This document shows, piece by piece, positions 1 through 18,377 of a stretch of DNA of 42,946 bases. Each line of letters opens with the position of its first letter. The stretch's first letter is position 1. The DNA lies in contig NZ_CAMKWA010000015.1 in the NCBI RefSeq assembly GCF_946476835.1, positions 1 through 42,946 of the forward strand, given 5' to 3'. The notes under the pieces were generated by a model. It was given only the letters and a program-made list of their open reading frames with translations, was not told the DNA's origin and ran no database searches. This stretch comes from an uncultured Neokomagataea sp. Its GTDB lineage: Bacteria; Pseudomonadota; Alphaproteobacteria; Acetobacterales; Acetobacteraceae. The position numbers and the translations under genes are program-made.

Positions 1-44
1 TCATAACCTGAAGGCCGTAGGTTCAAATCCTACCCCCGCAACCA
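1..44 (+). tRNA. tRNA-fMet (CAT), 3' part only
   Basis: This is the 3' half of an initiator tRNA; the 5' half lies outside the window. The anticodon CAT is at positions 2-4, followed by the 3' anticodon stem, variable loop, T arm (GTAGG/CCTAC around TTCAAAT) and an acceptor strand ending GCA-A-CCA, with CCA encoded at 42-44. An A before the discriminator A is the initiator hallmark (A72). The acceptor end is the attachment site of the element that follows. Confidence 0.88.
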
Positions 45-1719: not shown

Positions 1720-1807
1720 CGTTTTGTCTCGTCCGCTTCTTCTGCTCAAAACCACTCAGCGCGATCTTCCGTGACATGTCCAGACCAAGTCGCGCCAATA
1801 GGAGGCT

Positions 1808-3106: not shown

Positions 3107-3378
3107 TGAAGGCATCTCCCTGTGCGGACTGTGATGGTGTTTCTGACATCGCTTTGACCGCTCTGTTGAGGCGTAAAAATCTTCTCCTTCTTCTCACTGG
3201 TCAAGAACCAAATGGTTCTTGTCTAGCTTCTTCAATAGGAAAAACGTTCAGCGTCAGAAAAGGAAAAAAGGAATCGCAGTTACTGCCGGGGGAGGGCTAC
3301 GCCCCCCGGCAGCGCCTGCTTAGAAAAAGAGCAGAACAAGACGGTGGGGCGAACAAATCTCCAACAAAGGAACCCCAC
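3107..3378. promoter_or_regulatory. Divergent intergenic region with a strong G+C hairpin
   Basis: This region separates the leftward RepA-like gene from the rightward small genes and must hold promoters for both. It contains a perfect 10-bp hairpin (3283-3292 with 3303-3312) with a 10-nt loop whose own bases can form a nested GGGC/GCCC pair. No T run follows, so it is not a plain terminator. G+C-rich hairpins of this kind are common between plasmid backbone genes. I could not place promoters with confidence. Confidence 0.45.
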
Positions 3379-3552
3379 ATGTCCAAACTGACTTTCAAAC
3401 CGGCCAACGATACCCTCGACCCCGCTACGGAACTGCTCCTCGCGCTGCGTCCCTTCATAGATTTGCTGGCCCGTCAGGCCGTTCGCGAGTTCGTCGCAAC
3501 CAACGACAACGGCAACGACGCACAGCGCTTCCACGTCGCTTGCGCACGCTAA
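3379..3552 (+). CDS. Small hypothetical protein (57 aa)
   Basis: A 57-residue protein starting at an ATG with AAAGGA about 8 nt upstream. It has a hydrophobic leucine-rich middle (residues 18-31) and an Asn/Asp-rich stretch containing TNDNGND, then ends in ACAR. I recognise no domain. The next gene, 14 bp on, contains similar ANDN motifs, so the two are probably co-transcribed plasmid-type accessory genes. The good ribosome binding site and clean spacing to the next gene are the main reasons to call it real. Confidence 0.6.
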   Translation: MSKLTFKPANDTLDPATELLLALRPFIDLLARQAVREFVATNDNGNDAQRFHVACAR

Positions 3553-3566
3553 GGGGAGGACACATC

Positions 3567-4103
3567 ATGCTACTCTCCGCAAAAAGCCGTAAGCGCGTCG
3601 CCGACTACACAAACAAGATCACGGATCAGGTCATGCAGAACCTGCATCACCGACACATCAGATGCGTGATCTCAGACTGGGTCCGTGGCTGCATGACCAA
3701 CGCTGCCGCCAATGACAACGGTGCTGCCACAGCATCCGCCTCAGCTAACGATAATCATGCACCTGAGCTCCCTGCGAAACACCGTCGTCCCGCCTTTTTG
3801 GAATCGTACCTTTCGGTCGTCCAAGAACAGCAAGGGTCACCACGCGTCATCCTATCGATGAGTCAGGCTGATGCGAGCGCCCTTAACATGAAGGCGGGTC
3901 ACTATGTCCTGGTCTCCGTCATCGTGGTCACCGATCCTTACTTCGCGAAAATCGTGGAGGCCGTCAGTGTACGTCGAGTCAAGCGTGGGACGCAGGGAGC
4001 TGTTCAGGTCGAAGGGCTGCCGTATTCGCGTGCGGGATGCGCAGGCCAGCCTCTGTTCGCAAAAGCCGGTTTACCTCAGCCCCGTCCGGTATCACCCAAA
4101 TAA
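3567..4103 (+). CDS. Hypothetical protein with ANDN-rich linker
   Basis: A predicted protein of 178 aa starting at the ATG at 3567, with GGGGAGGA 6 nt upstream. The N-terminus is basic, residues ~50-70 form an Ala/Asn/Asp linker with two ANDN motifs, and the middle (about residues 80-145) looks like a folded beta-rich domain. No family is recognised. The last ~40 codons overlap the next gene in the +1 frame, and there codon third positions look more coding-like in the other frame. The true end may therefore be earlier, or this gene and the next may once have been one reading frame. Function unknown. Confidence 0.55.
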   Translation: MLLSAKSRKRVADYTNKITDQVMQNLHHRHIRCVISDWVRGCMTNAAANDNGAATASASANDNHAPELPAKHRRPAFLESYLSVVQEQQGSPRVILSMSQADASALNMKAGHYVLVSVIVVTDPYFAKIVEAVSVRRVKRGTQGAVQVEGLPYSRAGCAGQPLFAKAGLPQPRPVSPK

Positions 4104-4896
4104 AGATGAAAAGGCGGTGGACCTCTTCTTGCCGTGGCCTGGCGGGCCGCTGGCCTTGGACGATCTCCAAACGCTGGACCACCGTACCCAGACGGGGCTC
4201 GCACGACGCCTCCTGCTCGCAAAATGGACAGTTCCCAAGGCGAAAGGAGCGGGGGATGAATGCTACACGCTCGCGTTCATCTACGGATGGGGACTGAAAG
4301 CCGCAAAGAGGTCACTGTATGACATCGACCTTTGCTCGATGAGCGACACGGGCCATTACGCAGCGCCTCTGTCCCCGGCTGCACGGCAGAAGATTCCATG
4401 GAGCGCCATTCCCGCGCAGTACCGCCGCGATGACATCGAAGCGCAATTGGCTCCGGTTCCAGCGAATGATCGCTATACGGACGAGGGACCGTTTGGGGCG
4501 CTCATGCGTCCCTGGAAGGGAACGCTCTTCTGGATCAACCCACCGTATAGCCAGCGGCTCTGGGCGTGCTTCATGGAACAGGCCCTACGGAAAGTGGAAC
4601 GAGATGGGCGCAAGATCTTCGTGACGCTGGGGCCAGACGATAACTGTGGGTCTCATGCAGCTCCGCTTTACGATCGCCATGCCTATCGCATTACGTTGGA
4701 GCGGCAATTGCCGTTCTACAAAAAACGGAGTTCATCCATCGAAACGATTAGGAACAACCAAATCGTCGTCTTCGGGAGGGGGGTGAAAATGTACCGTTTC
4801 TTGCGGCGCCTTGCCACAATCATGCAGGCCGATGGCGTGATTTCGGCCGAACAAAAGGCCAAAATCATTAAGGAGTCCTGGCTCTATCTGCGCTAA
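4030..4896 (+). CDS. Phage-Dam-like DNA adenine N6-methyltransferase
   Basis: The protein resembles the phage DNA N-6-adenine-methyltransferase family. It has YDIDLCS followed by a variable stretch, then the catalytic WINPPYSQ motif (NPPY) and a helix beginning LWACFMEQA, as in family members. It likely methylates adenine in DNA, perhaps protecting the element from host restriction. The start is uncertain. No ATG lies in frame near the upstream gene's end; a GTG at 4030 gives 288 aa and a GTG at 4117 gives 259 aa. An ATG at 3904 exists in frame, but there the sequence reads as the upstream gene. A frameshift joining this frame to the upstream gene is possible. The gene is convergent with the DUF3987 gene. 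Confidence 0.62.
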   Translation: MRDAQASLCSQKPVYLSPVRYHPNKDEKAVDLFLPWPGGPLALDDLQTLDHRTQTGLARRLLLAKWTVPKAKGAGDECYTLAFIYGWGLKAAKRSLYDIDLCSMSDTGHYAAPLSPAARQKIPWSAIPAQYRRDDIEAQLAPVPANDRYTDEGPFGALMRPWKGTLFWINPPYSQRLWACFMEQALRKVERDGRKIFVTLGPDDNCGSHAAPLYDRHAYRITLERQLPFYKKRSSSIETIRNNQIVVFGRGVKMYRFLRRLATIMQADGVISAEQKAKIIKESWLYLR

Positions 4897-4902
4897 TAAC
4901 AG

Positions 4903-4924
4903 GGCGGGGAAGAAAGGCCCCGCC
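4903..4924. other. Hairpin between convergent genes
   Basis: A 7-bp G+C stem (4903-4909 with 4918-4924) with an 8-nt loop fills the short gap between the methylase stop and the DUF3987 stop. It may act as a terminator, but no T run follows on either strand. Confidence 0.35.
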
Positions 4925-4927
4925 GCC

Positions 4928-6211
4928 TTAGGCCGCCTCCGGGCGTGATGATGTATTGGCATCATGCTGCGGCGCTTGGGGGCGCATGAGCTCCTGCACA
5001 AAGCGCGCCATCGGGGCGTTTTTTATATCTCGGACGCCCGCAATGAGCTCTCGTGGGGATGGTGCGTGCCCCAGGCGCTGTGCTAGGGCTTCGGCCTTGC
5101 ACACCACTTTTTCCAAGTCCGACATATTATAGCGATCCAGGAGGTTGCGGGCGTCTTGAAGATGCAGTTCGGCGACACGGATGGCCCAGCCTAAATCCCC
5201 GGCGTCGATTTCTGGTGTCTCCTTCCCCAGGAGTACATGGTAGACGAGCGCATATTTGAAGCTCCGCCACAGGATCCGACGGAAGAAACTGGACGGCACA
5301 GTGGCATGGTCTCGAAAGAGCCTCCGAAACTGCGTGCAATAGGCCTCTATGGCCTCGGGAGAAGCGGTATAAAGCGGGTGAATGGTCGTCCTGCGCACCC
5401 TGTCCCAGGCTTCCGTTAAGGCCTTGGATGTGGGTGCGTCGTCCATGGTGTAGAGCGGCATGGGCGGCTCGGGCCTGCGTTCGGCAATGACATATTGGAA
5501 ACGCTGCATGAACCCATCCAGCATGCTTTCCAGGGTGACGTTTTGGAGGAATGTGTCTGTGACCGTTGTTCCCAAAATTACCAGGGCCGGATCTTCAACC
5601 TCAATGGTCTGGCTTCGGGTGCGGCGTGAAATGGTTTGGTTGTCATACAGGCGCAGCAGGTAATCGCGGATTTCATCCGCGTAGGTTTGGCTGTTGATCC
5701 GTTTGATCAACTGGCCCCACTCATCTTGGAACCAGGCGGCATGGTTGTGCTCTTGGAGGTCTGCGACGAATTGTGCGGCGGTTGTGACCTCGGGGAAGCG
5801 TCGAAGTGTCATAATATTTTGCAGGACGCGGGTGGCATAGGTTTTGCTCGCGCCGCTTTCGGCCAGAACCGTGGTCCAGAGGTCTGGACGGACCGTACTT
5901 CCGGCGACGGAGATCTGGACATTTTGGTCGAGGAGCCAGGCTGCAATGCCGTGCAGGGCGGTAAAGGCTGGAATTTCCAGCGGTACATCGCAGCCGTGGT
6001 GAAAGCGATCAATGACGGTCGCAAGGAATGTATCAGGTGGGACAATGTCACGGCCACGCCATTTGGTGTTGGTCGTTTTTAAATTGAGGAAGCCTTGGAG
6101 TGTTTCTCGTTGGGCTTCCGTGAGGTTTTCTGAGATCTGATCGAAGATCGAGTATTGTGAAGATGCAGGTGATTGTCGGGCTTTCTTCTTGCGAGGGGGA
6201 TGACGGGCCAT
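4928..6211 (-). CDS. DUF3987 family P-loop protein
   Basis: A 427-aa protein that fits the DUF3987 family, found on plasmids, phages and integrated elements and often paired with primase or helicase functions. A degenerate P-loop, LAESGASKT, lies at residues 116-124, followed by an acidic WFQDEWGQL segment that may serve as Walker B. The N-terminal ~20 residues are basic and Pro/Lys-rich; the C-terminal third is helical. It is transcribed alone, leftward, convergent with the methylase gene. Its role is probably in element DNA maintenance, but no biochemical activity is established for the family as far as I know. Confidence 0.68.
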   Translation of the reverse strand: MARHPPRKKKARQSPASSQYSIFDQISENLTEAQRETLQGFLNLKTTNTKWRGRDIVPPDTFLATVIDRFHHGCDVPLEIPAFTALHGIAAWLLDQNVQISVAGSTVRPDLWTTVLAESGASKTYATRVLQNIMTLRRFPEVTTAAQFVADLQEHNHAAWFQDEWGQLIKRINSQTYADEIRDYLLRLYDNQTISRRTRSQTIEVEDPALVILGTTVTDTFLQNVTLESMLDGFMQRFQYVIAERRPEPPMPLYTMDDAPTSKALTEAWDRVRRTTIHPLYTASPEAIEAYCTQFRRLFRDHATVPSSFFRRILWRSFKYALVYHVLLGKETPEIDAGDLGWAIRVAELHLQDARNLLDRYNMSDLEKVVCKAEALAQRLGHAPSPRELIAGVRDIKNAPMARFVQELMRPQAPQHDANTSSRPEAA

Positions 6212-6735
6212 CAGGGGCGCTCCTTATGCTGGATGGGGGAGGATACGGCGACGCATGCGCCGTACAGGACACCTGGGTCCAGAACGGGGGCGAGGGAAGC
6301 TGATGACGTCAAAAAAATGCCAGCGGAGCGATTTTTATTTTGAATAGGGAATAATACCCGCGACGATGGGGACCCCCGTCAGCGTCTGCATATTTTAGAA
6401 AATTCCGGGATTCTGAGGATTATAGGCCAATAAACGCGTCAGCAACCCGTCTGCAAAAAGGGCGCTGATTTATGTTTGGGGCGAGTGTTGGTGGCTTGTC
6501 AGGCGAGGGGACGGGCCAGACTACTTATCTGTGGGGCGGAGCACAGCACTTGCCATTGTTTTATAGGGGAGGAACGTTGGCCGATAGGTACGAATATACG
6601 GTAAGGAGCCAATGAGCCTCTCTTTGAAGCGGACGTGGCTCACAGCCCGCGACGATTATTTACTGTTAATTCAATGGGGCAGTATATCAGTGTAAAAATA
6701 AAATAGAATTAAGCCCTTTACGCTTGTTATCTTCA
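6212..6735. other. Intergenic region between DUF3987 gene and defence operon
   Basis: I see no convincing gene in these 524 bases. On the minus strand a consensus -10 (TATAAT, complement of 6419-6424) lies about 200 bases before the DUF3987 start and may be its promoter, though its -35 is poor. A TGACGTCA palindrome sits at 6304-6311. A hairpin-capable segment lies near 6361-6380. The region also holds the 3' flank of the defence operon with no clear terminator. A 47-codon plus-strand frame at 6471-6614 has no ribosome binding site. Confidence 0.4.
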
Positions 6736-9522
6736 TTAATTACGACACAGGTCGCTTGATCGTATGTTCCATGGTTTCGTTAAACTCTCTTCGATGTCGC
6801 GCCGCGCAACCACCTTCGTCCAAGTTTCCCATCCGTGTTCATCTTTTTCAACGCTCAGGAAGTCTCCATACCGCAGACTGAAAACATCAGCTGGACTCTC
6901 CGGCTTGGTGAAGCTCTTTAGTTCTTCTTCAACTCGCTGAATATCTTCGATCCAGTCGTCCTCGATCGTGTCGGGAAGCGAGCCGAGGATATCGTACCGG
7001 TCCTGCATCCGTTCGGACAGACGTCGATAGACCCGTTCGTCGATCGTCCCAGCATAGACAAGGTTGGCCATGTCGACCTCACGGCGTTGCTGGCCATATC
7101 GCTTGATACGGCCGATCCGCTGTTCGAGTCTTGATGGGTTCCACGGCAAGTCGACATTGATCAGGGTACCAAGCGTCTGCAGGTTCAACCCTTCACATGC
7201 AGCATCCGTCGCGCAGACCACACGCAGCTTACGCTCTTTTACTCCTCTCTTGATGTCTTCGCGATCAATGGTTCGCCATTCTCCATCTAGAAAAACGCCG
7301 GATTTTCCCACTCCGGCATAGACAGCGACAGGTTCATCCGGATGTGTCTTGCTGATTAGCTCGCCGACCCAGCGAGCGGTATCGTAGTATTGAGAGAAGA
7401 TGATGCAACCACGCTCAAGCCATTCCTCCTGATCGAGGTAATACATCACAGCGCGGCCCTTTGGGTCTTCCTGGCGTGCTGACGTGAGTATTTCCAAGAC
7501 CCGTTGCAGGTGCTGCGCCTCAACATCAACTGCTGCAGCATAGGCTTCGGCGCCCATCCCCTCAATCGCTTCCAGAAGATCTGGGGCTTCGATTTCATCG
7601 AGAAGCAAGCTCTCACGGCGGCGTTCCAACATTTTCGATGCTGTCGCCATACCCGCCGCAATCGACGAACAGATCCGCTGCATCATCAGATTACCAAGAA
7701 ACCCGGTTCCAGCCTGACGGGCTTTCATCGCAAGGGTGAAGTTTCCAACCTCTTCATAGGCGCGATCATAGAAATGCGGAGTTCGAACCGCGTTCCTTTC
7801 GAAGATGCCAGGAGCCTCGCCGAGACGCGGGTGGATATTCACTGCAATGCGCTCCATCAGTCCCGCGTTTTCCAATGTCTTCCTGCGCCGCAAGACAACA
7901 TGTCGGCCGAGCGGGTTGTGGTAGCGCATGAACGGGAGACCCCGGGCGATCTCCCCGATCTCTAGGACCTCCTCAAGGGTATCACGGGTATCCTCTTCGA
8001 GGCTTGAAACCCCCTTGTCGGTAAAGAACTCGTCCTCCGGTATCCGAAGATCGTACCGTATATCACTGAACACTGCCGCCTCGCGCGCATGCGGGAGGGG
8101 CGAGCGAAGCCAAGGCCAAGCCGTCTCCGGGTTAGGCAGAGTGGTTCGACCCGTGACCAGGTCGAGTGCTTGTTCTGGGTCCCACCAGCGCGATGCGCTT
8201 GGGCGCCCCAGAACGTGATCCTGCCCACAGGCTAGAAGCTTCATCAGATCCCAGATTTCGTCTCGGTTCGTCTGGATGGGAGTTGCGGTCCCGATCACCA
8301 GATGTCGGGTACGTCCTGCGAGCCGCTCCATAGCTTGATAGAGTTTTCCGGGCTCTGGTTCATCCATGCCGATTCCACGTTTGACACGGGCTTTGTGCCC
8401 CTCGTCAAGCGCGATCATCCCATAATTTCCGCACATCAATGCCTGTGCCTCGGGTCCACCTCGAACCAGCAGGCCCGTTGACACAATCCCGATCTGAGAA
8501 GGGCAGCGCAATATATCTTCAGGATCCCGGGATCGGTAAAGATGACCTCGATGATCCATCCATCCCTTCTGAGGTGCGCGGGCCCAAACACAAGAAGGCA
8601 GTCCAAGCTTGTCCCAAAGCTCCATCTGCCATTGCAAAGTGAGGGTTGCAGGGCAGAGGATTAGGAACGGCCCTTGCCCCATGAGGACAGTCAATGCCCC
8701 TGTCGCGGCCATAGACAAGGTCTTCCCGACGCCCACCTCATCAGCGAGCAAAAGCCGGGCCGCCCCGTATTTCTCGTCGTGCTCGACGAAGATATTCACG
8801 AACGCCTTCTGCCAAGGCGCCAGCCCTTCCCCCTGGCGCACGAGGGGGCTCTCGACCGTGACGGATTTTGCGAGCCCGACTGGGTCATCGCGCATCTGCT
8901 CGATCTGAACCTCGACTTTGTGTGCTGTCCGTCCGATCTCGTCAATCACCGCCTGAGAGAGGGGAACGCCTTTTTTCCAGAGCCAGTCGAACTCAGATTG
9001 AACCCAAGCCGCGGCCTCTTGTGACGGATCCTCCCAAATCATTTCGTAAGACTGCGCCCATCCGTTGGCCGTTTCGTTGATCGACCCGATGAAACTGGAC
9101 GTCGTTCCGTCGGGGCGGGTAATCACCCCGGCTTTGCCATGCAGAAAGGGAGCATTGTCACGCGAGACAACCCGGATCTCTACGTTCCCGGAGGTCAGCA
9201 ACTCATGGAGGCGCCGCCAGCGTGGCCGCTCCAGCAGCGCGTCGATCTCATTCCCCTGCTCATGCCATCGCTCGACCTGAGCTTGGTCCCGAGCTTTCTG
9301 GGAGAGTGTCGCAGCAGTCAGATCACGAGGATCCAGATCTGCATTGCAGACAATGCGAACTCGGCCAATCGTGCTGATCTCTTCATGAATCAGATCGAAT
9401 ATGGAGGAGCGAAAATAACCGGCGATCCGGTCATAGGTTTCTGCTCCTTTGAGCCTGTCCTTCAGGAACACATGGGACAAGCGCTGGTTGCGCGAGGAGA
9501 AGCGTGAGATCAGACCCTGCAC
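6736..9522 (-). CDS. PLD-SNF2 helicase fusion of the defence operon
   Basis: A 928-aa fusion protein. The N-terminal phospholipase D-like nuclease domain (about 1-180) has one HKD-type motif: HGK at 128-130, then a conserved SFIGSINE block at 143-150. The SNF2-family helicase that follows has motif I DEVGVGKT (261-268), motif II DEGH (373-376), GTATP, and motif VI QRIGRIKRYGQ near the C-terminal end. It should translocate on DNA and may cut it, acting as effector of the system. With only one HKD copy, it probably dimerises to form the active site. The start is a GTG 16 bases after the upstream methylase stop, so translation is likely coupled. BREX type 3 BrxHII and DISARM DrmD are SNF2 relatives in other defence systems. 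Confidence 0.85.
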   Translation of the reverse strand: MQGLISRFSSRNQRLSHVFLKDRLKGAETYDRIAGYFRSSIFDLIHEEISTIGRVRIVCNADLDPRDLTAATLSQKARDQAQVERWHEQGNEIDALLERPRWRRLHELLTSGNVEIRVVSRDNAPFLHGKAGVITRPDGTTSSFIGSINETANGWAQSYEMIWEDPSQEAAAWVQSEFDWLWKKGVPLSQAVIDEIGRTAHKVEVQIEQMRDDPVGLAKSVTVESPLVRQGEGLAPWQKAFVNIFVEHDEKYGAARLLLADEVGVGKTLSMAATGALTVLMGQGPFLILCPATLTLQWQMELWDKLGLPSCVWARAPQKGWMDHRGHLYRSRDPEDILRCPSQIGIVSTGLLVRGGPEAQALMCGNYGMIALDEGHKARVKRGIGMDEPEPGKLYQAMERLAGRTRHLVIGTATPIQTNRDEIWDLMKLLACGQDHVLGRPSASRWWDPEQALDLVTGRTTLPNPETAWPWLRSPLPHAREAAVFSDIRYDLRIPEDEFFTDKGVSSLEEDTRDTLEEVLEIGEIARGLPFMRYHNPLGRHVVLRRRKTLENAGLMERIAVNIHPRLGEAPGIFERNAVRTPHFYDRAYEEVGNFTLAMKARQAGTGFLGNLMMQRICSSIAAGMATASKMLERRRESLLLDEIEAPDLLEAIEGMGAEAYAAAVDVEAQHLQRVLEILTSARQEDPKGRAVMYYLDQEEWLERGCIIFSQYYDTARWVGELISKTHPDEPVAVYAGVGKSGVFLDGEWRTIDREDIKRGVKERKLRVVCATDAACEGLNLQTLGTLINVDLPWNPSRLEQRIGRIKRYGQQRREVDMANLVYAGTIDERVYRRLSERMQDRYDILGSLPDTIEDDWIEDIQRVEEELKSFTKPESPADVFSLRYGDFLSVEKDEHGWETWTKVVARRDIEESLTKPWNIRSSDLCRN

Positions 9523-9538
9523 GACCTATGCCCTTTCA

Positions 9539-12481
9539 TCAGATCCGCTCCGTTTGGATCGCAGTTCCGAGGATTCTGGCTGCGGCTGCTTCGGCCGAGT
9601 CCGTATGCTCCCGCTTTGCGGCGACATAGGCGATCAGCTGGCGCAAGGCATCGCGTTTGCGCATGTAGCCCGGGATCATCTCCCGAAGCTCCTCGAGCAC
9701 ATCCTCGACCTCATCCTCCTTCGCGACACGCCAGACGCCACGCAGCGCAAGGCGCACAATGCTATCCCGCCCGAAGGGAGTGCCTTCTGCCATGGAGGTC
9801 TTTCCGAGCTTGATCGCAGTCTTCAGCTTCGCATTGTTGGGCGATTTCGACGTCATCATGTCGTCGTAGTCGCCGACACGGAACGCCTTGGCGAAGTTCT
9901 GGAATTGGTCGAGCTTCGCTTCACCGGCCTCTTCGATGTCCATCATCTTCAGGTAGAACCGCTCCGCCCCATTCAGTTCGAGCCAGAGTTCCCTCTCTAG
10001 GCCTTCTGGAACCAAGAACTCGTTGGCCGTCTGAACAGCAAATTCGGTGAGCTCGTCGACGATCGTTGTCTCACCTTTCTTGCGGGGGCGCAGCGCTTCG
10101 CGGGTCATGTCGACCCCGTCGATCTTCGTGTAGGCGGTCAGAACCCGTAGCGCGGCGGCGTATCCTGCCATCTGGAGGTCGGCATCGTTGAAGATGTTCT
10201 CCCCGCGCGCGGCATCCATCTGATCATTGAGACCAATCATCTCCTTGATCTGACGTTCCACCTCATCGCGGATTTCGTGAACGATCTCGTCTTGATACCC
10301 TGATTGCTCGCCCTGACGCTTTTTCAGGATAATGATATGGGTACCTTGGACGTACCCACCCTTTTTCAGCTCGGTCATCGTCTCGGTGGAGACGTACCAG
10401 TCCTGAACCACCTGCAGGCCAGAACCCCAGAAAATCTGAGCCATGTCCGACCAGGTCTTGGCATCTTGGTGCGTAAACTGGACGATCTGGAGGCCATTTT
10501 TCGGCATATGCTCTGTCATCGCACCGTAGGCGTCAATCATCGCTACTTTGAATGACTGACCCTCACCCTTAATGGCAAGGTTTCGGCGCGAGTCCCAGAT
10601 CCATTCATTGAAAGGAACAGGTGGGTTCTTCCGAAGCCATGCAATGAAGAATTCCGTAATTTCATCGTATTGGACGGCATCTGCATAGGGAGGGTCAGTG
10701 ATGTAAAGATCAGCAGGCTGATCTGTCTCGCTTGCACGGCGACTGATCAGTTTCCCAGATGCTTTCAACGGAGAATTACCTGGCACGTCTTCGAGGTATG
10801 AGCGAGCGAAACCGTATGACCTCACACCGTAGTTAGGAAACGGGTTGAGAGCCTGATTATAGAAGGTTTGCGCAACCGACTCCCGAGCTGCACCAGTTCC
10901 ATAGCGACATAGCTTAGAATTCCAGTCGAGGAATTTTGCGGTAAAGACACGACCTTCAGGAGAATCTTTGGCAGCCGAGAGGACAAGAGCCGTGAAAAGG
11001 ATCTGCCTTGGGCTAAACAGATGATGCCAATAGGTCCAGCCGCGGGTTCGGATCGGCTCGTCTGTCTTGTTTCCAGGCTCGATTTGCATATCTGATACAA
11101 AGCCGTCCTGCTGCCAAGCAGCCAGATGCTGCTCGACGTACACGATAACTTCTTTTTCTTTCGCGACATCCTCTGCTGTAACCGCGGAAAACCAGCTTCG
11201 TGGGCTTGTTTTTCCTTTCTTGATATCCTGACCGTCCATCCATTGGATCGCGTAGAGACGCTCTTGAAAGATGTCACCGGGACGGGGGCGTATATCATGG
11301 CATTCCCATTGACGCAGGAGATTGCCCGTCGCACCATTTTCATCGCGAAAATCACCTCGAATTTCCTTCATGGAAATGCCAAGGTCATCTTTCAGAATTG
11401 GGTGGAAAAGGCGTCCATCTTGAAGCGTTCCTAATGTTGCTTCATCGACTTCTTCATCCGTTACCCCATTCAGCACCTCAATGTCATACCGTTTGTTAGT
11501 ATGATCAGGTACAAGTCGTGCAATCGAATTTCGTTTTTTGGATATCATCCACGTAGGCGAAATGGGCACCATCCATCCAGTCCGAGGGCACCGCGTTTCC
11601 AGGCAGTAGAGGTAGAGTTTAGCCCTGTTGCCAGAGGCATCATGCTCAATGCCCATGCTTATAATTTTTTTATCCACTCGATCAGCGATCTTGTGCATTT
11701 CACGTATAATTTCGGCATGTCGCTCGGGACTTGCGCCTACGATATTAAAAGTTGCCCAACTCAACATGCAAGCAATCGGATTCAGGTCTGATGCGATCAC
11801 GTCGCAACCTACCCTTGCAGCTTCGTACGGGATCGAACCGGATCCAGAAAAGGTGTCAGCCAGCAGTGGTCGACGACCAAAGCGCATGACCCCCAACTGC
11901 TCCACCAACTGAGAGATGTTACAAGCGGTTGTTCCGAGATGCCTGTTTACCTCTGACCAGATTCCGTCCAGAAGTTCTTGTTCCGCAATTTCCTCGGGTC
12001 GCTTGACCTTCTCAAGACGCTGAGCGTAGGGCATCTCCGTAAATGCTTGGGCGATCCGTCGCTGACGCTCAATAGGGGCCAGATCATCTCGCCACACCAA
12101 AGACCGCCCTGTATCGTCAGCAACTTCTAGCGCATGCTCAGGAAACAGCCTCGCAAAAGCCGTCGGCCCTCCTTCATAACGTCGCCCGAAGGTCTCATCG
12201 GCCATACCCATGAGCTTTTCGAAGATCTCGACGTCCCGCTCCAGATCGTCAGTCGCTGGGATGAGGGCGCCGAGAATGCAGGCCCGCGTCAGGATCAGTG
12301 GTTTGCGCCCCTTCCAGTAGGAACCGAGCCCCGTCAGCGTCTGCCCCTGAACTGCCTTCCGCTCTTTTTGTGTTTCCGCCGAGATCTTTGCGGTCGGCCA
12401 AGCCTTTTCGATCAGGGAAGGAGTATCCCTGAGGCTAAAAGGTGTGACGGAAGAAGTCGCGGCAGCGGTCGTAGTCATCAT
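9539..12481 (-). CDS. DUF1156 adenine-specific DNA methylase (PglXI-like)
   Basis: A 980-aa DNA methyltransferase of the DUF1156 / COG1743 class. The N-terminal DUF1156 region (about 15-75) is followed by SAM-binding motif I DTFSGSGS (209-216), a Cys pair near 293-299 that fits a zinc ribbon, and the catalytic DPPY at 596-599. It should methylate adenine-N6 in host DNA, marking self. I start at the ATG at 12481, where GAGGA lies upstream and the DUF3780 stop is 7 bases away. A longer frame to 12739 only overlaps the DUF3780 gene and is rejected. The family also supplies PglXI in type 3 BREX. Confidence 0.87.
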   Translation of the reverse strand: MMTTTAAATSSVTPFSLRDTPSLIEKAWPTAKISAETQKERKAVQGQTLTGLGSYWKGRKPLILTRACILGALIPATDDLERDVEIFEKLMGMADETFGRRYEGGPTAFARLFPEHALEVADDTGRSLVWRDDLAPIERQRRIAQAFTEMPYAQRLEKVKRPEEIAEQELLDGIWSEVNRHLGTTACNISQLVEQLGVMRFGRRPLLADTFSGSGSIPYEAARVGCDVIASDLNPIACMLSWATFNIVGASPERHAEIIREMHKIADRVDKKIISMGIEHDASGNRAKLYLYCLETRCPRTGWMVPISPTWMISKKRNSIARLVPDHTNKRYDIEVLNGVTDEEVDEATLGTLQDGRLFHPILKDDLGISMKEIRGDFRDENGATGNLLRQWECHDIRPRPGDIFQERLYAIQWMDGQDIKKGKTSPRSWFSAVTAEDVAKEKEVIVYVEQHLAAWQQDGFVSDMQIEPGNKTDEPIRTRGWTYWHHLFSPRQILFTALVLSAAKDSPEGRVFTAKFLDWNSKLCRYGTGAARESVAQTFYNQALNPFPNYGVRSYGFARSYLEDVPGNSPLKASGKLISRRASETDQPADLYITDPPYADAVQYDEITEFFIAWLRKNPPVPFNEWIWDSRRNLAIKGEGQSFKVAMIDAYGAMTEHMPKNGLQIVQFTHQDAKTWSDMAQIFWGSGLQVVQDWYVSTETMTELKKGGYVQGTHIIILKKRQGEQSGYQDEIVHEIRDEVERQIKEMIGLNDQMDAARGENIFNDADLQMAGYAAALRVLTAYTKIDGVDMTREALRPRKKGETTIVDELTEFAVQTANEFLVPEGLERELWLELNGAERFYLKMMDIEEAGEAKLDQFQNFAKAFRVGDYDDMMTSKSPNNAKLKTAIKLGKTSMAEGTPFGRDSIVRLALRGVWRVAKEDEVEDVLEELREMIPGYMRKRDALRQLIAYVAAKREHTDSAEAAAARILGTAIQTERI

Positions 12482-12488
12482 CAAATCC

Positions 12489-13061
12489 TCAGAGGTCTTT
12501 GAACAAGTCAGGGATTTTTTCCGTGGGCGTTTTCGGGCGTGGGCGGCGCGCTGCGGTCGATACTTCGTCTCCGTCCTTGACCAGGGCGTGCCGTATGGCG
12601 ACTCGCCAACCGGTTTTGGAGCTGTCCCACTCTCCTCCATCTCTGTCAATTTGCTGGAAGAGCCACCACAGCTCTTCCGGCCGGTGTGAAGACCAGCGAG
12701 TAAAGGCAATAGCTGCCTCATCTGAAGTCGCATCTTCAATAGCCCAAGCCAGCACGCAGAGCTCGCGCCCCAAGATCCGTTCCACCCGGTTGTCGCCTGT
12801 GTTGAAGCGGGACGCTTTGAGGTTCTTCTCTTTGAGACGGCGATTGAGGTGGGATTTCAATCCTTCTGCTACTTGGCACCACGCATCACGAGGCACTGCG
12901 GCACGGCACAGCTTTTGCGCTGTCGATCCGACTCCAGCCGCTCCAAAATCTTCCCAGATCTCAACAGGATCATTCCGCCCAAGAAGGATTCTCACCAGAA
13001 ACTGGTGCGGAAGCGGGTCATTCGGAACCCCGAATCCATGAGTAATCGGTTTTCCTACCAT
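12489..13061 (-). CDS. DUF3780 protein of the defence operon
   Basis: A 190-aa protein matching, from memory, the DUF3780 family that accompanies DUF499 and DUF1156 proteins in defence islands. It is Trp-rich with alternating helices and strands. I see no catalytic motif. The C-terminal ~25 residues are charged and Pro-rich. Its ATG overlaps the DUF499 stop (TGATG), indicating translational coupling, and its stop lies 7 bases before the methylase start. Its position between the ATPase and the methylase suggests a structural or specificity subunit of the complex; that is inference. Confidence 0.72.
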   Translation of the reverse strand: MVGKPITHGFGVPNDPLPHQFLVRILLGRNDPVEIWEDFGAAGVGSTAQKLCRAAVPRDAWCQVAEGLKSHLNRRLKEKNLKASRFNTGDNRVERILGRELCVLAWAIEDATSDEAAIAFTRWSSHRPEELWWLFQQIDRDGGEWDSSKTGWRVAIRHALVKDGDEVSTAARRPRPKTPTEKIPDLFKDL

Positions 13062-16000
13062 CAGATTGCCTGCTCCACGTCATCGATGGAGATGTCAATC
13101 CCGACCTGATTAGCGAAGTCTTTCATGGTGTAGCCATCCGGGAAGTCCGCTTCACGGAAGCGAAGCTGCACCTCTGCATCGAATTGGCTCAAGGCACCGC
13201 GCAGTCCTTCGATTATCGTCTCGATGTCTTCACCGGTCAGCGCGACGTCTCCACCGCTCCGCATCCGCAGACTTTTCTCGCCTTCGCCGACAGTAACACT
13301 GACACCGTGGAACAAGATGTTCTCCTTGCCCTTAGAAGCGCGGACGACACGGAGAACATCACTTTTGGAGGCGAACTGGAAGTCACGCTTCACCTTGGCA
13401 GATCGACTGTCATCGATGGTTTTCTTTGCACCAACGGCATCAAACGTGAAATCACGCCGAGCTGTCACCCCGCCCTTCTCCGCATAGACGTAAAGGGTGG
13501 TTTTCTGGCGCCCGTCGATTTCGATCGCCGTACCGTCGTAAACGGCACCTTCTTTCGGATTGATGCCCTCAGTGTTCCAGCGCAGCTCCGCCTCAGGACG
13601 GGCTGTGAGGGTCACCTGCCAGATGCCAGCGTTGTCGCGCCGTTCATGAGTTATGATGATCGCACCGGACCAACGATAAGGCTCGCTGACTTCGCTCGTT
13701 TCCGGATTGCGAGCTTGGCACCATAGTTCCACTTCTGCGGTTCGATAGGTGCGGTCCGTGATCACCTCACCGCTCTCCAAGCCTTCACGGGTCGGAGCAA
13801 TCAACACTTCCGGCGCCTTGCCTGCATTCGAGATGGCAAACTCGAGATCGCTTTCACCAGTCATCTCATTACCAGCGATCCGCGTGACGCGGATCACGGG
13901 TTGCGGCGGCGGCGGGCTCTTGTTTACGTAACCATTTTCTTCAGCCCAGCGACCGTCTGCAAGCGCGGTCGCTTTGATCTCGTCCATTCCTTTCGGAGGT
14001 AGCCAAATCCAGCGCGGGTTCGATGCGGCGCGCTCGAGCACGTCCGACCAACGTGTCCGAGACTGACCGTTGGGAAAAAGCTGATCTTCGCAGCGTTGGA
14101 TCAACCCATCCATTCGATCTGGATCAAGCTCTACAAGCTTCTTCGCGCCTCCCCCGGACAATGCAGCTTCGACAGCCTTCTCACCTTGGATCACTCCCCG
14201 CTCCTGGAAATGGCCTAAGTCGATCCGCGCACTCTTTAGTTCCTTCGTCTGGGGATACCAGACTGCGTTAAAAAGGCTTTTTACCGTGGAATTAAAGCCG
14301 ATCTCTGTCGTCTCTTGCTCTGTCTCAATCTCCTTCTGGTGTCGGGGGGTATCCGCCACGATCGTCCTCACCGCAGCAATCGCGAGAAGGCGGCGGACAC
14401 TTTCTTCCGCACTTGCCATCTTGGATCCATCACCGGCAACAACACAGAATGAGTTTTTGTAGACTACGTCATTGAAGAACCTAGCAGCTGCTGCTGGGGG
14501 AGACTTTGCGTCCGGGGAAAGGACAAGACACGTTCGCTTTGACGTAGTCAGTTTCACCTCATCGACCCGCGGTAGTACGATCAGATCAGAATACGCCAAT
14601 TTGTTAGAAGGCCGAAAAATGTCGGTCAGACGACGACGCATCTCGTCATCCACGCGGTCCTGTGGGATCTTGCCGACCTTATCCTCGATCTGCTTTCGTA
14701 CGTTGGCGATATCGGAAAAGTACCACCGATCACCGTCACGATTATGCAGGTACCAGCACCGTTTCCGGAGTTCATCAAACGCTTCGATGAAATTCGTAGG
14801 CTCCTTCCCGGGCGCGACCAGGTACTCAATCACAGTATCCCGAGGCAGGCCTCGAATACCGTCGGTGTTATCAGATAGCGAGGAAATGAACAGCAAAGTC
14901 GCCACTTGGGATGCGCATCGATCATTGCGATCTCCATCGATTCCCTGGGCATGGGCAGACCCGTCCGTGTCATAGACGTCGCTTGCGAGCGCAGATTCCA
15001 GAGATCGTTCGATTTCCTTGACTTGATCCCGGGTTTCTTGGTCGGAAAAATCAAGAAATTGGGCTCCGATTAAGAAGACCTCTTCTTGACCTTTGTTTGC
15101 CCACACCCCGCGCATCAAGTTCGCGGTGAACTGGATCAAACCGCGGGTTTGCCGGAATTTTTCGTTTTCCTTAAAAAGCGAAAGGATATCTTTATAGCTC
15201 GGATGGAAGGGGTAGGAACCGACGATTTCATCAGCCATCTGTTCCGCAGACTTTGCCAAGGCACGGCCTCGAACTGCCTCTTGGTATGCTGTCAGATATG
15301 CCTGCGCGACCTTTTCCACCTCTTCCCCAGCTGGATCAGGCAGCTTGGTGAACAGGCGTTTCCTTAGGATGTCGTAAATCTCTCCTGTGTTCAGGTCTAC
15401 AGGGGTGATAGCTTTGGCGCCGCGGCTTGTTTCCTTTTGCAGGTCAGCAAGCTGCCCACCAAGAATTCTGCGCGCATCATCATATGCGGCATCAAGGGAT
15501 GCCACCACAACGACACACCGTTGCAATTTCATCGCAGCTGAAAACAGGTTTGCTAAGGAATACTTGAGCAAATCCAACAGAGTGCCGTGCCCCACTGTCT
15601 TGGTGTGCGCCATGGCAAGGTATGGCGGAAGTTCATCCAGCATGATCAGAGTAGGGCGGTCCCCAATCAGCCGCATCCAGTCTCCTTCGCTCATTTCTTT
15701 CGGACCATTGATCCAATGGTCACGGAACTGTTCTGCCTTACCAAGTTGATCGGCGATGTCCCCCCAGATGAACTGTCGAACGTCACGGCCATTGACTGCG
15801 GCAATCACTGCGGGCTCGTTTCCCATGCCAGCAGTGATCTCGGTTGGAAGCTCATCTTTGAGTTCCGGGAACCGCGCGAGTAATCCCAGGGCGATCATGT
15901 TGTGGGTCTTACCACCGCCCATAGCCTGACGAAGTTCGAAAACTGCCTGTTGGCTTTTGCCCGCTAGTCGCTTCAACGCTCCCCGAAGGAATTCGGACAT

Positions 16001-16165
16001 ACCCGACGTCACATGGTTTCGAGTGTAAAAGGTGCGTGCAGTGTTTATATCCGCTTCGGGGATAGACGAGAGGTGTTCAACCTGTTCAGACCGACTCATG
16101 GAGAAAACGTCTGGGTTTACGTCGCAAACACTGGTTACGAGAGGAATGTTGTACCCCGAGCTCAT
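13061..16165 (-). CDS. DUF499 AAA+ ATPase (BrxC/PglY-like) of the defence operon
   Basis: A 1034-aa DUF499 / COG1483 ATPase and first gene of the operon. Walker A is AMGGGKTH (81-88), in the glycine-rich form typical of this family; Walker B is LIMLDELPPY. The N-terminal 70 residues resemble the conserved family leader. The C-terminal third is beta-rich with many charged residues and probably binds DNA or partners. The related BrxC/PglY is the large ATPase of BREX. It should supply ATP-driven assembly or sensing for the methylase and helicase. A good promoter lies about 200 bases upstream. Confidence 0.84.
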   Translation of the reverse strand: MSSGYNIPLVTSVCDVNPDVFSMSRSEQVEHLSSIPEADINTARTFYTRNHVTSGMSEFLRGALKRLAGKSQQAVFELRQAMGGGKTHNMIALGLLARFPELKDELPTEITAGMGNEPAVIAAVNGRDVRQFIWGDIADQLGKAEQFRDHWINGPKEMSEGDWMRLIGDRPTLIMLDELPPYLAMAHTKTVGHGTLLDLLKYSLANLFSAAMKLQRCVVVVASLDAAYDDARRILGGQLADLQKETSRGAKAITPVDLNTGEIYDILRKRLFTKLPDPAGEEVEKVAQAYLTAYQEAVRGRALAKSAEQMADEIVGSYPFHPSYKDILSLFKENEKFRQTRGLIQFTANLMRGVWANKGQEEVFLIGAQFLDFSDQETRDQVKEIERSLESALASDVYDTDGSAHAQGIDGDRNDRCASQVATLLFISSLSDNTDGIRGLPRDTVIEYLVAPGKEPTNFIEAFDELRKRCWYLHNRDGDRWYFSDIANVRKQIEDKVGKIPQDRVDDEMRRRLTDIFRPSNKLAYSDLIVLPRVDEVKLTTSKRTCLVLSPDAKSPPAAAARFFNDVVYKNSFCVVAGDGSKMASAEESVRRLLAIAAVRTIVADTPRHQKEIETEQETTEIGFNSTVKSLFNAVWYPQTKELKSARIDLGHFQERGVIQGEKAVEAALSGGGAKKLVELDPDRMDGLIQRCEDQLFPNGQSRTRWSDVLERAASNPRWIWLPPKGMDEIKATALADGRWAEENGYVNKSPPPPQPVIRVTRIAGNEMTGESDLEFAISNAGKAPEVLIAPTREGLESGEVITDRTYRTAEVELWCQARNPETSEVSEPYRWSGAIIITHERRDNAGIWQVTLTARPEAELRWNTEGINPKEGAVYDGTAIEIDGRQKTTLYVYAEKGGVTARRDFTFDAVGAKKTIDDSRSAKVKRDFQFASKSDVLRVVRASKGKENILFHGVSVTVGEGEKSLRMRSGGDVALTGEDIETIIEGLRGALSQFDAEVQLRFREADFPDGYTMKDFANQVGIDISIDDVEQAI

Positions 16166-16333
16166 GCTAAATACTTGCCTTCATTCAATTTCAGAAGCGG
16201 AGAAACTCTTTGAATGCTTCGACCTGAGTGATGCGACGCTCTGCGCACCACACTTTGCACTCGCGCCTCTGGCGTTCAGAGGTTTTGAGGTTCAGGCTTA
16301 TGCATTGGTTCACATGGTCTGGTTTGAAACTAT

Positions 16334-16348
16334 CATTTGTATCAAATG
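16334..16348. promoter_or_regulatory. Palindrome in the defence-operon leader (possible operator)
   Basis: A perfect 6-bp inverted repeat, CATTTG-TAT-CAAATG. It lies just downstream of the expected transcription start of the DUF499 operon, where a repressor could block transcription. No candidate regulator gene is present in the element, so a host factor would be needed. Confidence 0.4.
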
Positions 16349-16376
16349 CCTACGTGGATATTCTCCTTATAGCAAG

Positions 16377-16405
16377 ATATTAGGTGCAAGGTTGTTTTGT
16401 CTCAA
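16377..16405 (-). promoter_or_regulatory. Sigma-70-type promoter of the defence operon
   Basis: On the minus strand, TTGAGA (16405-16400) and TAATAT (16382-16377) are separated by exactly 17 bases, which fits a strong housekeeping promoter. Transcription would start near 16370 and give a leader of about 200 nt before the DUF499 start at 16165. It lies between the relaxase stop and the operon, so defence expression need not depend on the mobilization genes. Confidence 0.62.
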
Positions 16406-16500
16406 ATTCGAGGGGATTAAAGAACGGTTGGCTGGTGATGCTAGGCTTTCGGAGTGCTGATTGATTGGTGCCTTGATGGCGTTCTTCGATTGGCGTCTTT

Positions 16501-17796
16501 CTAGCGGCCCCGCTGCATGTCTGTGCGTTCTTTGCGCGACTGATGATGTTTTGGGAAACTAGGCCATGGGCTGGAAGTTGACGTTTTCTGCGGTCGCTGC
16601 GGGATGTGTGGTGCAAGGCGTGTCCAGTCTACTGCATTGATCATGTGGCGTACTCGATTGCGCATAGTGTCCCAACCATGACGCAGAAGCGCAAGCAGGC
16701 AGAGTTCATGTTCATGCAATGCTTGGGTGGAGTAGCGCCATGGGGTGGCTTTCAAGGCATCAGCCACCCACACATCATCCCAGTGAGGAATAACGACGCG
16801 CCCATCAGCGTGTGTCTCTTCCACGGTTGGGAAGAGGGCGGCACTGCTGGCTCCATTCGGGGTTGGGACAGTTGGGTCTGTGTACTGTCCAGGAGGTTCT
16901 CTGTCTGTCCCAGAAGGCGATGGCATTGCGCTGTAATGTGCTCCATTGCCGTGAGGCGCTCTCGAAGTTGAAACGCTGCACGCTCGGTGTTCTGTCGGGC
17001 ATGGTCCACGCTCTCTTGAAGGCGTAGGAAAAACTCGGTCGGATCGTCGCTCATATCCCTGTTCCTTCACTTGGCTTGCGAGCGCATTGATGCGCCGCAC
17101 GGTGGTGTTTGTTTCGCTGCGTGTGCGGCCCTCATCGATCTGGGGCCAGTCTATGGTTTTGCCGTTTCTTCTGGTCTTGTGTTGGCTGCCAGGACGCTTG
17201 CCTTGCGCCTGCATGATCCGGGCGGCTGGCCCTTCATGAAGTGTGGGGAGGAGATGGCCTTTCCCCTGATCTTCAAGAGAACGGTGATCAATCGGTGGTC
17301 CCGTTCCGGCCATGATGCGGTTATGCGTTTCGGTCCATTCTTCGCGCACCCGTTCCAGCGCCCCTTTGCGGGAAAGTCCGATGACCTTGCTGGGCCGTCC
17401 TTTTCCTCCGGTGCGGGGTTTGTTTTGTTCCAGCGCGATGAGATGGACATGGGGATTGCCCGGTCGGTCGTAATGGATGGCTGCGATCCAGGGGGCAGCG
17501 CCATGTGTGACTTTTTCTGCAAAGTCGCGAACGAGACGCTGGTGAAGCTCCGGCGTTCCTTCGCGAGGAAGAGCGATAATGAAGCATTCGGCAATTCGGC
17601 CGTTTTGGCCGGCCATCGTTTCATGGCGTTCGGCCAGGGTACGAAGGTTGGTCGTGTCATAGGCCGACAGGCCATGACGTTCTCCGAGCAGGATGAGATC
17701 CTGGCGATTACAACAGATGTAGCGCAATCGTGCGGCTGTTTTGCCAATCCCGTCAGTGGCGGCGATGCTGCTATGTTGTAAGGAATACAGGGCCAT
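16501..17796 (-). CDS. MobA/MobL relaxase (MobQ family)
   Basis: A 431-aa relaxase that should nick the oriT just upstream and lead the transferred strand into a recipient. The N-terminus fits RSF1010-type MobA. The likely catalytic tyrosine is Y26 (in RLRYI), the histidine triad is HYDRPGNPHVHLI (H108, H116, H118), and the downstream IDHRSLEDQG plus HEGP segment is also shared. The relaxase domain ends near residue 210. RSF1010 MobA carries a C-terminal primase; this protein is too short for one and ends in a low-complexity Pro/Ser/Thr-rich region plus a short helical end. The low-complexity part coincides with another gene read in a different frame (16752-17054). Confidence 0.87.
   Translation of the reverse strand: MALYSLQHSSIAATDGIGKTAARLRYICCNRQDLILLGERHGLSAYDTTNLRTLAERHETMAGQNGRIAECFIIALPREGTPELHQRLVRDFAEKVTHGAAPWIAAIHYDRPGNPHVHLIALEQNKPRTGGKGRPSKVIGLSRKGALERVREEWTETHNRIMAGTGPPIDHRSLEDQGKGHLLPTLHEGPAARIMQAQGKRPGSQHKTRRNGKTIDWPQIDEGRTRSETNTTVRRINALASQVKEQGYERRSDRVFPTPSRERGPCPTEHRACSVSTSRAPHGNGAHYSAMPSPSGTDREPPGQYTDPTVPTPNGASSAALFPTVEETHADGRVVIPHWDDVWVADALKATPWRYSTQALHEHELCLLALLRHGWDTMRNRVRHMINAVDWTRLAPHIPQRPQKTSTSSPWPSFPKHHQSRKERTDMQRGR
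16752..17054 (-). CDS. MobB-like protein nested inside the relaxase gene
   Basis: A 100-aa protein encoded wholly within the relaxase gene, same strand, shifted by one base. Evidence that it is real: GAAGGA sits 8 nt before its ATG; residues ~1-65 form a heptad-like helical segment; and the C-terminus (about 79-100) is a single hydrophobic segment (TLMGASLFLTGMMCGWLMP) fitting a membrane anchor. The relaxase frame over the same DNA is low-complexity, as expected if this frame is the constrained one. RSF1010 has the same arrangement: mobB lies inside mobA and encodes a membrane-associated protein that helps the relaxosome engage the transfer apparatus. I infer an equivalent role. Sequence similarity to MobB is not evident by eye. 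Confidence 0.7.
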   Translation of the reverse strand: MSDDPTEFFLRLQESVDHARQNTERAAFQLRERLTAMEHITAQCHRLLGQTENLLDSTQTQLSQPRMEPAVPPSSQPWKRHTLMGASLFLTGMMCGWLMP

Positions 17797-17827
17797 GGCT
17801 CACGCCTTCGGCCCGTTGGGTTCGCAC

Positions 17828-17864
17828 GCGAAAATCGTAGATTTTCGCTGAAGTGCGCCCTCCC
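17828..17864. other. oriT, RSF1010/MobQ type
   Basis: A perfect 9-bp inverted repeat (17828-17836 and 17840-17848, GTA loop) is followed at once by TGAAGTGCGCCCTCCC. The AAGTGCGCCCT core is the nic-region signature of MobQ plasmids such as RSF1010. It lies 32 bases upstream of the relaxase start, in the usual position between mob genes. I do not assign the exact nick. Confidence 0.82.
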
Positions 17865-17885
17865 ATTTTTCTGCCCTCTGTTCCA

Positions 17886-18179
17886 TTACGGCCTCGATAG
17901 GGAGGGGAGGGAAGATGTGTCTGTTGGGGGTTTAGTGCTGCCTGACGGACCCTTCAAAAGATCATACAGGGCTTTGACACGGTGCAGGTCCTGAGCGAAT
18001 TCTTTTACAGGAAGGTTCATCTGTCGCAGGACTTTGCGAAGAGCCGCGTTCTGGGCTTTTTCACCTGGGAAGCCCGCCTGGTAGAAGGCCGCGAGATCGA
18101 CTATGTCGCCTGGTGTGAGCGTGCTGGCATTTCCCAGGCGTTGGTTAAGAGTGATGAAACGATGCGCTTGAACAAGCAT
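17886..18179 (-). CDS. Small mobilization-region protein (97 aa)
   Basis: A small helical protein just upstream of oriT and the relaxase gene, same strand. AGAAGGA lies 9 nt before its ATG. It is mostly alpha-helical, with a basic middle (RKVLRQMNLPVKEFAQDLHR) and a Pro/Ser-rich tail. I recognise no family. Its position suggests a relaxosome accessory protein analogous to MobC or TraD of MobQ plasmids, but that rests on context only. Confidence 0.6.
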   Translation of the reverse strand: MLVQAHRFITLNQRLGNASTLTPGDIVDLAAFYQAGFPGEKAQNAALRKVLRQMNLPVKEFAQDLHRVKALYDLLKGPSGSTKPPTDTSSLPSLSRP

Positions 18180-18358
18180 AGGGGAGGATCCTTCTGACAG
18201 TGGATCTTCCTGACCTAGGTCCCGTGAAGCGTAACCGAAGTAAAATTGTTAAAAAATTTGATTATTTTTGCATGGCCTGTGGGCCGTGCAATGTGCGTTG
18301 CAAGGCGAGCGTTAAGCAATCAATCGTAGGGGGAGGGGATAAGTTCGCCAAAGTTGGT

Positions 18359-18377
18359 ATCCTGCCCCCGCAACCAA
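18359..18377 (+). repeat. attR: right 19-bp direct repeat
   Basis: A second copy of the tRNA-fMet 3'-end sequence (one mismatch to 27-45), ending 10 bases before the stop of the convergent regulator remnant. It marks the right boundary of the element. The 180 bases between it and the last element gene hold an A+T-rich patch (18240-18270) and an imperfect inverted repeat (18270-18289) but no gene. Confidence 0.84.

Follow-up and report, generated by a model that had tools for sequence, protein, structure and literature searches.

A Type-2 BREX-Related operon on an integrative element of Neokomagataea, with a sliding-clamp-type tail motif in its DUF3780 family

We analysed a window of 42,946 bases, which is one entire contig (NZ_CAMKWA010000015.1) of the 2.44-Mb genome of an uncultured Neokomagataea sp. 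(GCF_946476835.1). Four tightly packed minus-strand genes at 6736-16165 encode a DUF499 ATPase, a DUF3780 protein, a DUF1156 methylase and a PLD-SNF2 protein, and this operon is a restriction-modification (RM)-like Type-2 BREX-Related (BR) system (BREX, bacteriophage exclusion) carried by an integrative, probably mobilisable element. New here are a disordered DUF3780 tail with a motif of the sliding-clamp (DnaN) type, found in several clades; rapid change of the methylase between close relatives, confined to that protein; and the carrier element of the operon plus its empty site in a same-genus genome. The best explanation overall, which we consider fairly likely, joins a Type-2 BR system on an element with a methylase that would set specificity and a DUF3780 subunit that would dock on the clamp.

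The DUF3780 protein stands alone in the core locus (PF12635, 2.7e-68; NF042961 over its cut-off). Its AlphaFold model comprises four strands and five main helices over residues 1-161 (mean predicted local distance difference test score, pLDDT, 86.7), followed by a tail at residues 162-190 that has pLDDT blocks of 56-64 and no secondary structure and is predicted to be disordered. A sequence search for solved relatives gave no match at E<=1, and a fold comparison with the PDB gave 117 matches at E<=10, none of them at E<=0.001 among the 50 listed. A constant C-terminal ending was noticed across 93 DUF3780 copies, from which a first set of 67 tails was drawn, with one copy per 90% identity group plus that of the window and with two tail-less phage copies excluded. 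The pattern L.LF was present in 41 of the 67 tails, compared to a mean of 0.8 and a maximum of 5 in 2000 shuffles, and LF lay within the final 15 residues in 59 of them (shuffle mean 4.0). The motif persists where other genes follow DUF3780, for example at locus L068, which shows that it does not result from overlap with the next gene.

The consensus of the bacterial sliding clamp is QL[S/D]LF or QxxLF, with QLSLPL as a tight binder and xxxLF in some polymerases (PMC12309361), and the clamp motif is often C-terminal in proteins (PMC4549789). The clamp idea was written down before 30 tails of three further phyla were read, whereas 10 viral-contig tails had been read before the pattern was fixed. 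The 30 tails came from Chloroflexota, Cyanobacteria and Bacillota copies (the phyla of L109, L072 and L127), leaving out L201 and L209 (no match), L206, L208 and L231 (tail missing or too short) and L234 (fragment). Q-anchored five- and six-residue forms were found in 11 of them (QLSLF, QLNLF, QIDLF, QMNLF, QMELF, QMTLF, QLDLPL and QLSLL), with 8/16 in Bacillota (QLNLF and QMTLF twice each, QLSLF, QIDLF, QMNLF and QMELF), 1/8 in Chloroflexota and 2/6 in Cyanobacteria. Three of the 30 tails, including one of the 11 matches, belong to genes already sampled in the first set, so the count among new tails is 10/27; the C-terminus GQLSLFA of L206 was lost to the tail rule. Among the viral-contig tails, QLALSL-type ends (HSQLALSL, HSQLSLNL) occurred in 7/10, all seven in one deep clade, and another viral-contig locus carried QYSLF.

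Over the non-redundant tails from phyla, viral contigs and plasmids, 14 of 36 were Q-anchored (mean 0.23 and maximum 3 in 5000 shuffles). The same patterns were absent from the last 40 residues of the other three proteins (0/72, 0/79 and 0/66) and from the end of the DUF3780 body (0/93), and the Q-anchored state required 9 parsimony changes on a tree of 106 domains. These sequence patterns suggest that DUF3780 tails of the family probably bind the sliding clamp DnaN. The clamp reading was not found in print among the titles listed, in a search that did not extend to most subscription papers or to bioRxiv outside PubMed Central. The words clamp, DnaN, PCNA and replisome have no occurrence in the main text of PMC12839542, the 2026 survey of these systems and the one paper in the literature searched that names DUF3780; that survey found no definitive homologues of DUF3780.

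Several points weigh against clamp docking. Under a strict rule 5/67 tails of the first set were Q-anchored, and position 1 in 82 LF-anchored tails was T in 23, S in 14 and Q in 12; the Q has been reported to be important for binding in Escherichia coli (PMC12309361). No motif form was found under a loose rule in 17 of 108 classed tails, which include Chloroflexota L202, L204 and L205, the Thermomicrobium copy, and L225, L227, L228 and L230, which carry QLDF without LF. The tail motif could also bind another subunit instead, and no experiments on the Type-2 BR subtype were found in the literature searched, outside which Gao et al. 2020 lies. In the window's clade, the form xPDLF agrees with the consensus only at D3, L4 and F5. 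The window's own tail, EKIPDLFKDL, has no Q-anchored motif, and most proteobacterial copies examined have a degenerate LxLF form. The chances that the degenerate tail of the window still binds the clamp appear evenly balanced.

A further point against clamp docking is the methyl-reader role that was proposed for DUF3780 by PMC12839542. DUF3780 would then be a reader of modified bases, as a substitute for TUDOR, and its tail would be the end of a linker or would dock on DUF499 or PLD-SNF2. Reader domains of the RAMA or ASCH/PUA type occur fused to some DUF3780 proteins (PMC12839542), and the DUF3780 of L119 has 359 aa with a long C-terminal addition. In addition, the globular domain, which lacks a counterpart in the PDB, is conserved and must thus have a function of its own. 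However, contact with a co-evolving partner fails to explain why separate clades arrived at the published clamp consensus in the same position, and did so with forms of both five and six residues, and L119 keeps an LFLF stretch in the linker ahead of the added part. We regard the reader account as unlikely, and reader and clamp roles of DUF3780 can coexist.

Several DUF3780 copies outside complete operons were also observed. In Proteus phage vB_PvuS_Pm34 (gp5-gp4; L024 9389-10477), DUF3780 is tail-less, ending with the globular domain, and it adjoins a fragment whose match to DUF499 is limited to the C-terminus (residues 847-1031 of a Halomonas protein); this may be a remnant or a decoy. A solo tail-less DUF3780, 50% identical to that of the window, lies at L141 9974-10492 (IMGVR_UViG_2885094732_000013), next to a phage-type exonuclease and with no other operon gene in the 11 kb examined, on a contig that ends 0.7 kb downstream. 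These two tail-less proteins (L141 and Pm34 gp4) may be used as decoys. L143-L147 were considered as phage-borne solo copies and rejected, as other operon genes are present (L143 with a cut DUF499). In archaea, where PCNA serves as the clamp, a DUF3780 tail would be expected to carry a PIP box. Neither of two plasmid searches gave an archaeal name in its 20 listed records, and the haloarchaeal plasmid examined had a different middle gene and no such tail. A DUF3780 on another viral contig (L179 6444-6989) ends in QMTLDQFL plus six residues, resembling an archaeal PIP box; it was not used as evidence, given its unassigned host and its neighbourhood of defence genes.

The four proteins differed in how fast they change between close relatives. 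All pairs with a DUF499 identity of 85-99.5% among 57 full-length four-protein sets numbered 111, and from these 14 pairs that share no locus were used. The methylase was the least alike of the four proteins in 14/14 of these disjoint pairs (69-91%, compared to 88-98% for DUF499). In 40-aa segments, methylase residues 441-600 showed 34-61% mean identity with a minimum of 18% in one pair (34-45% at 481-600), whereas residues 601-960 showed 86-96% and residues 121-440 were intermediate at 59-80%, apart from 92% at 201-240. No comparable variable block was present in DUF3780 (90-94% over residues 1-160) or in PLD-SNF2 (84-98%). DUF499 segments showed 83-88% in the first 120 residues and 88-98% beyond, and its N-terminal minima near 0 come at least partly from L062, which is cut by its contig. 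Within the window's clade, identity in the methylase block was 37-52% in L065 and L066, 35-47% in three of the four segments of L063, and 70-95% in L061.

The variable block falls between the S-adenosylmethionine (SAM) motif FxGxG (residue 211) and DPPY (residue 596) of the methylase, which matches PF06634, and PMC12839542 places the target-recognition insert between the same two motifs. Since the ATPase and the effector do not vary along with the block, site reading by the complex is most simply explained as running through the methylase, which very likely sets the target specificity of the entire system. Against this stands the suggestion that the C-terminus of DUF499 carries a fast-evolving recognition role (PMC12839542). 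The confinement of the variability to the methylase weakens that proposal for this subtype.

By its gene content the operon almost certainly belongs to the Type-2 BR system, which is not new: it was described by Rakesh and Krishnan 2026 in 1120 taxa, with DUF3780 in 98% (PMC12839542). The same DUF499, stand-alone DUF3780, DUF1156 methylase and HKD(PLD)-Snf2 lie there in one operon with no PglZ, the absence of which is the normal state of the subtype. The gene content is thus identical; what the present analysis adds is the clamp-type tail, the pattern of methylase swaps and the mobile element. The Hma or Type-1 BR system (PMC8565338, PMC12839542) likewise has a helicase, a methylase and a DUF499-type ATPase, but its helicase carries C-terminal REase and TUDOR domains instead of an N-terminal PLD, and DUF3780 is missing. 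All four proteins also match the NCBI 'anti-phage-associated' families NF042961-NF042964 and the PADLOC set DUF499/DUF3780/DUF1156_MTase/PLD_Helicase with no difference found, and the order of that set agrees on Methylocystis and Halomonas plasmids. Gao et al. 2020 reportedly listed this set as a restriction-like candidate. It is probably also the Gao_RL of DefenseFinder, a name that occurs in PMC12278908.

The arrangement recurs widely. Among 80 loci of named genomes, which are the best 80 of 462 methylase matches, 65 hold the four genes in identical order; two or three are present in the remaining 15, where the contig always stops within ~3 kb on the side of the missing genes. All four genes in the same order were also present at 10/10 loci from 8 genomes of the host's taxonomic order, two of them with some genes split across several frames. 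This recurrence in fixed order argues that the gene arrangement is not due to chance. Plasmids of Methylocystis, Halomonas and Thermomicrobium carry the operon, with most genes labelled anti-phage by NCBI, and a Deinococcus plasmid has DUF499 and DUF3780 with the remainder disrupted. DUF3780 is rare around the host: it was found in 1/26 genomes of the genus, 9/395 of the order and 2/398 of the phylum, the window's genome counted.

The original prediction, made from the bases of the window, had described the locus as a core-less operon of BREX type 3 in which DUF3780 takes the place of PglZ, BrxA, BrxB and BrxF. Its leftward four-gene operon with tight coupling was confirmed by the open reading frames (ORFs), by a TGATG overlap and by successive gaps of 7 and 16 bases. 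The gene families as named were likewise borne out, as all four proteins exceed the NCBIfam equivalog cut-offs and match the corresponding PADLOC models. An RM-like self/non-self mode with a helicase-nuclease effector is also supported. Kinship to type 3 BREX holds as well, in that the ATPase, the BrxXI methylase and the BrxHII helicase of that system are homologous to the operon proteins. The proposed identity of DUF499 with BrxC/PglY stands as distant kinship and fails as equivalence: the operon ATPase matches PF04465 and NF042962 (over its cut-off) and has no match to DUF6079 at E<=0.001, and PMC12839542 keeps DUF499 apart from BrxC, which is assigned there to DUF6079. The claimed absence of the core is correct for PglZ, which was not found in the window's genome (0/1, with a control set positive in 2/14), and for BrxA, BrxB and BrxF it holds within the operon, no dedicated search for them having been made.

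What did not stand is the view of DUF3780 as a replacement, as PMC12839542 describes a separate Type-2 BR system in which DUF3780 is a standing extra subunit. A BREX type 3 ancestor that lost PglZ, BrxA, BrxB and BrxF and gained DUF3780 in their place would account for the homology of the ATPase, methylase and helicase to type 3 parts (PMC12839542). However, the same four genes recur across several phyla with no pglZ among the annotated neighbours examined. Linkage of pglZ to the operon in relatives was looked for as well: PglZ was present in 3/21 carrier genomes and in none of them within the examined stretch around the operon, so a hidden BREX was rejected, BrxA, BrxB and BrxF not being part of this search. 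Furthermore, the related Type-1 BR was described without PglZ and without DUF3780 (PMC12839542). Descent from BREX by loss of the core, already disfavoured, is very improbable.

The operon is carried by an 18.3-kb element at the 3' end of a tRNA-Met gene, containing a recombinase, an AAA_25 ATPase, a DUF3987 protein, the operon and a relaxase. The left repeat consists of the last tRNA bases plus one and recurs at the right end of the element. An empty site is present in the same-genus genome G001, where L057 12-56 runs on into 38-561, the sequence found right of 18365 in the window, and the tRNA-Met stretch has a single exact copy in the genome. From its ends and its predicted genes, the element is integrative and probably mobilisable. 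The recombinase ORF crosses the left repeat and ends in the tRNA antisense, and its last residues derive from the target site. The recombinase and relaxase of the element were not found in the flanks of the six closest loci, some of which extend for a few hundred bases to a few kb, and the operon and the element therefore probably have separate histories. A flank of L065 contained a 27% match to the AAA_25 ATPase of the element.

The low frequency of the DUF3780 locus in the genus would fit a decayed passenger with no function in its host, as would the truncated gene that adjoins the element, a LuxR-type response regulator at 18388-18900 without its N-terminal part; G001 has ~105 bp more at this site and an open frame that includes the N-terminal part. 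However, all four operon frames are open and the catalytic motifs are intact. Operons from Novosphingobium, Roseovarius, Litoreibacter and Sandarakinorhabdus, the closest among the matches listed, share 78-90% protein identity with that of the window, as would be expected after recent transfer under selection, and we give the passenger account hardly any weight. The operons of Novispirillum and Phaeovulum are equally close except for the methylase (67-70%).

Motif conservation was assessed in the 57 aligned sets, the window among them. Walker A (GGGKT) of DUF499 was kept in 56/57, the remaining sequence being cut there, and DE in 57/57. FxGxG and DPPY of the methylase, HGK...GSxN of PLD, and GxGKT and DExH of SNF2 were each kept in 57/57. 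The PLD-SNF2 protein contains PLDc_2 (21-182), SNF2 (238-433) and Helicase_C (705-810) domains, and TUDOR gave no match in it at E<=0.001. The ORF list starts the methylase at the TTG at 12739, which very probably extends the frame spuriously into DUF3780, given that alignments to profiles and to most homologues begin near residue 97-110; L018 and L022 are exceptions that align farther out. The most likely start is the ATG at 12481, with GAGGA upstream, which yields the 7-base gap. The coordinates are listed in Table 1.

Table 1. Features of the carrier element and its operon in the window
Feature	Coordinates	Strand	Basis
Integrated mobile element carrying the operon	33..18377		Direct 13-bp repeats CCCCCGCAACCAA (33-45, 18365-18377); G001 of the same genus has the site empty
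tRNA-Met (anticodon CAT), 3' part; integration target, contig starts inside the gene	1..44	+	Read by eye from the sequence and L057 1-56
Large serine recombinase (integrase)	1..1755	-	Resolvase, Recombinase and Zn-ribbon domains
AAA_25 (RepA-like) ATPase of the element	1808..3115	-	PF13481 7.3e-31
DUF3987 protein of the element	4928..6211	-	PF13148 4.5e-14
PLD nuclease-SNF2 helicase, 928 aa, GTG start	6736..9522	-	NF042964 1157 bits (cut-off 1100); HGK...GSxN, GxGKT and DExH conserved
DUF1156 adenine methylase, 980 aa from ATG 12481	9539..12481	-	NF042963 1330 bits (cut-off 1000); FxGxG and DPPY kept 57/57
Methylase hypervariable block, residues 441-600, putative core of the target-recognition domain	10682..11161	-	34-61% mean identity in 40-aa segments, 14 disjoint close pairs
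DUF3780 protein, 190 aa; globular domain 1-161 and disordered tail 162-190	12489..13061	-	NF042961 208 bits (cut-off 200); AlphaFold model
Degenerate clamp-type motif IPDLF, residues 183-187, near the end of the DUF3780 tail	12501..12515	-	Position of the family motif; no Q at position 1, no L at position 2
DUF499 AAA+ ATPase (BrxC-like assembly ATPase), 1034 aa	13061..16165	-	NF042962 1274 bits (cut-off 1200); PDLC02192, HmaC; Walker A/B kept in 56-57/57
MobA/MobL-type relaxase (mobilisation)	16501..17796	-	PF03389 2.5e-18; NCBIfam MobQ 4e-13, below cut-off

Additional genes were observed inside related operons. In L068, DUF3780 and the methylase are separated by genes for a DarT-type ADP-ribosyltransferase and a macro-domain protein (8254-9974), and DarT homologues occur somewhere in 13/80 loci; DarT has no occurrence in the main text of PMC12839542. 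In the same locus, three genes lie between the methylase and PLD-SNF2 (13036-16225), encoding a 139-aa protein, a ParA-like ATPase and a 459-aa protein, and homologues of the ATPase and the third gene were found in 7/80 loci.

In the mechanism that we propose, the target-recognition block of the DUF1156 methylase would determine where this enzyme marks host adenines, and the methylase would also tell the complex which site to check, restriction presumably making use of the same block. The DUF499 ATPase, to judge from its family and intact Walker motifs, would then assemble or move the complex on DNA, and PLD-SNF2, whose family and intact motifs point to an effector, would degrade unmarked DNA. 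DUF3780 would be the adaptor, and its disordered tail, given the motif, may dock on DnaN. Docking might serve to methylate fresh host DNA behind the fork, or to let phage DNA copied with the host clamp be inspected. The DNA-modifying T4 enzyme alpha-glucosyltransferase (alpha-GT) co-purifies with the clamp gp45 (PMC13216743), which provides a precedent for the marking of new host strands. There, too, a DNA-modifying activity is brought to the sliding clamp, whereas the clamp link suggested here would depend on DUF3780 as a separate adaptor within a restriction system. The alpha-GT share of the marking is set mostly by expression and not by clamp contact (PMC13216743).

Another copy of a Type-2 BR system is ordinary in itself; a role for DUF3780, the subunit that marks the subtype, would matter. 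It is about an even call whether DUF3780 ties BREX-related restriction to the clamp, with self-marking and attack decided at the replication fork. If this is true, clamp-guided maintenance methylation would have a bacterial counterpart in this system. A tail that docks on the clamp would account for the way in which an RM-like complex locates newly made DNA, and restriction would be linked to replication in more than 1000 taxa.

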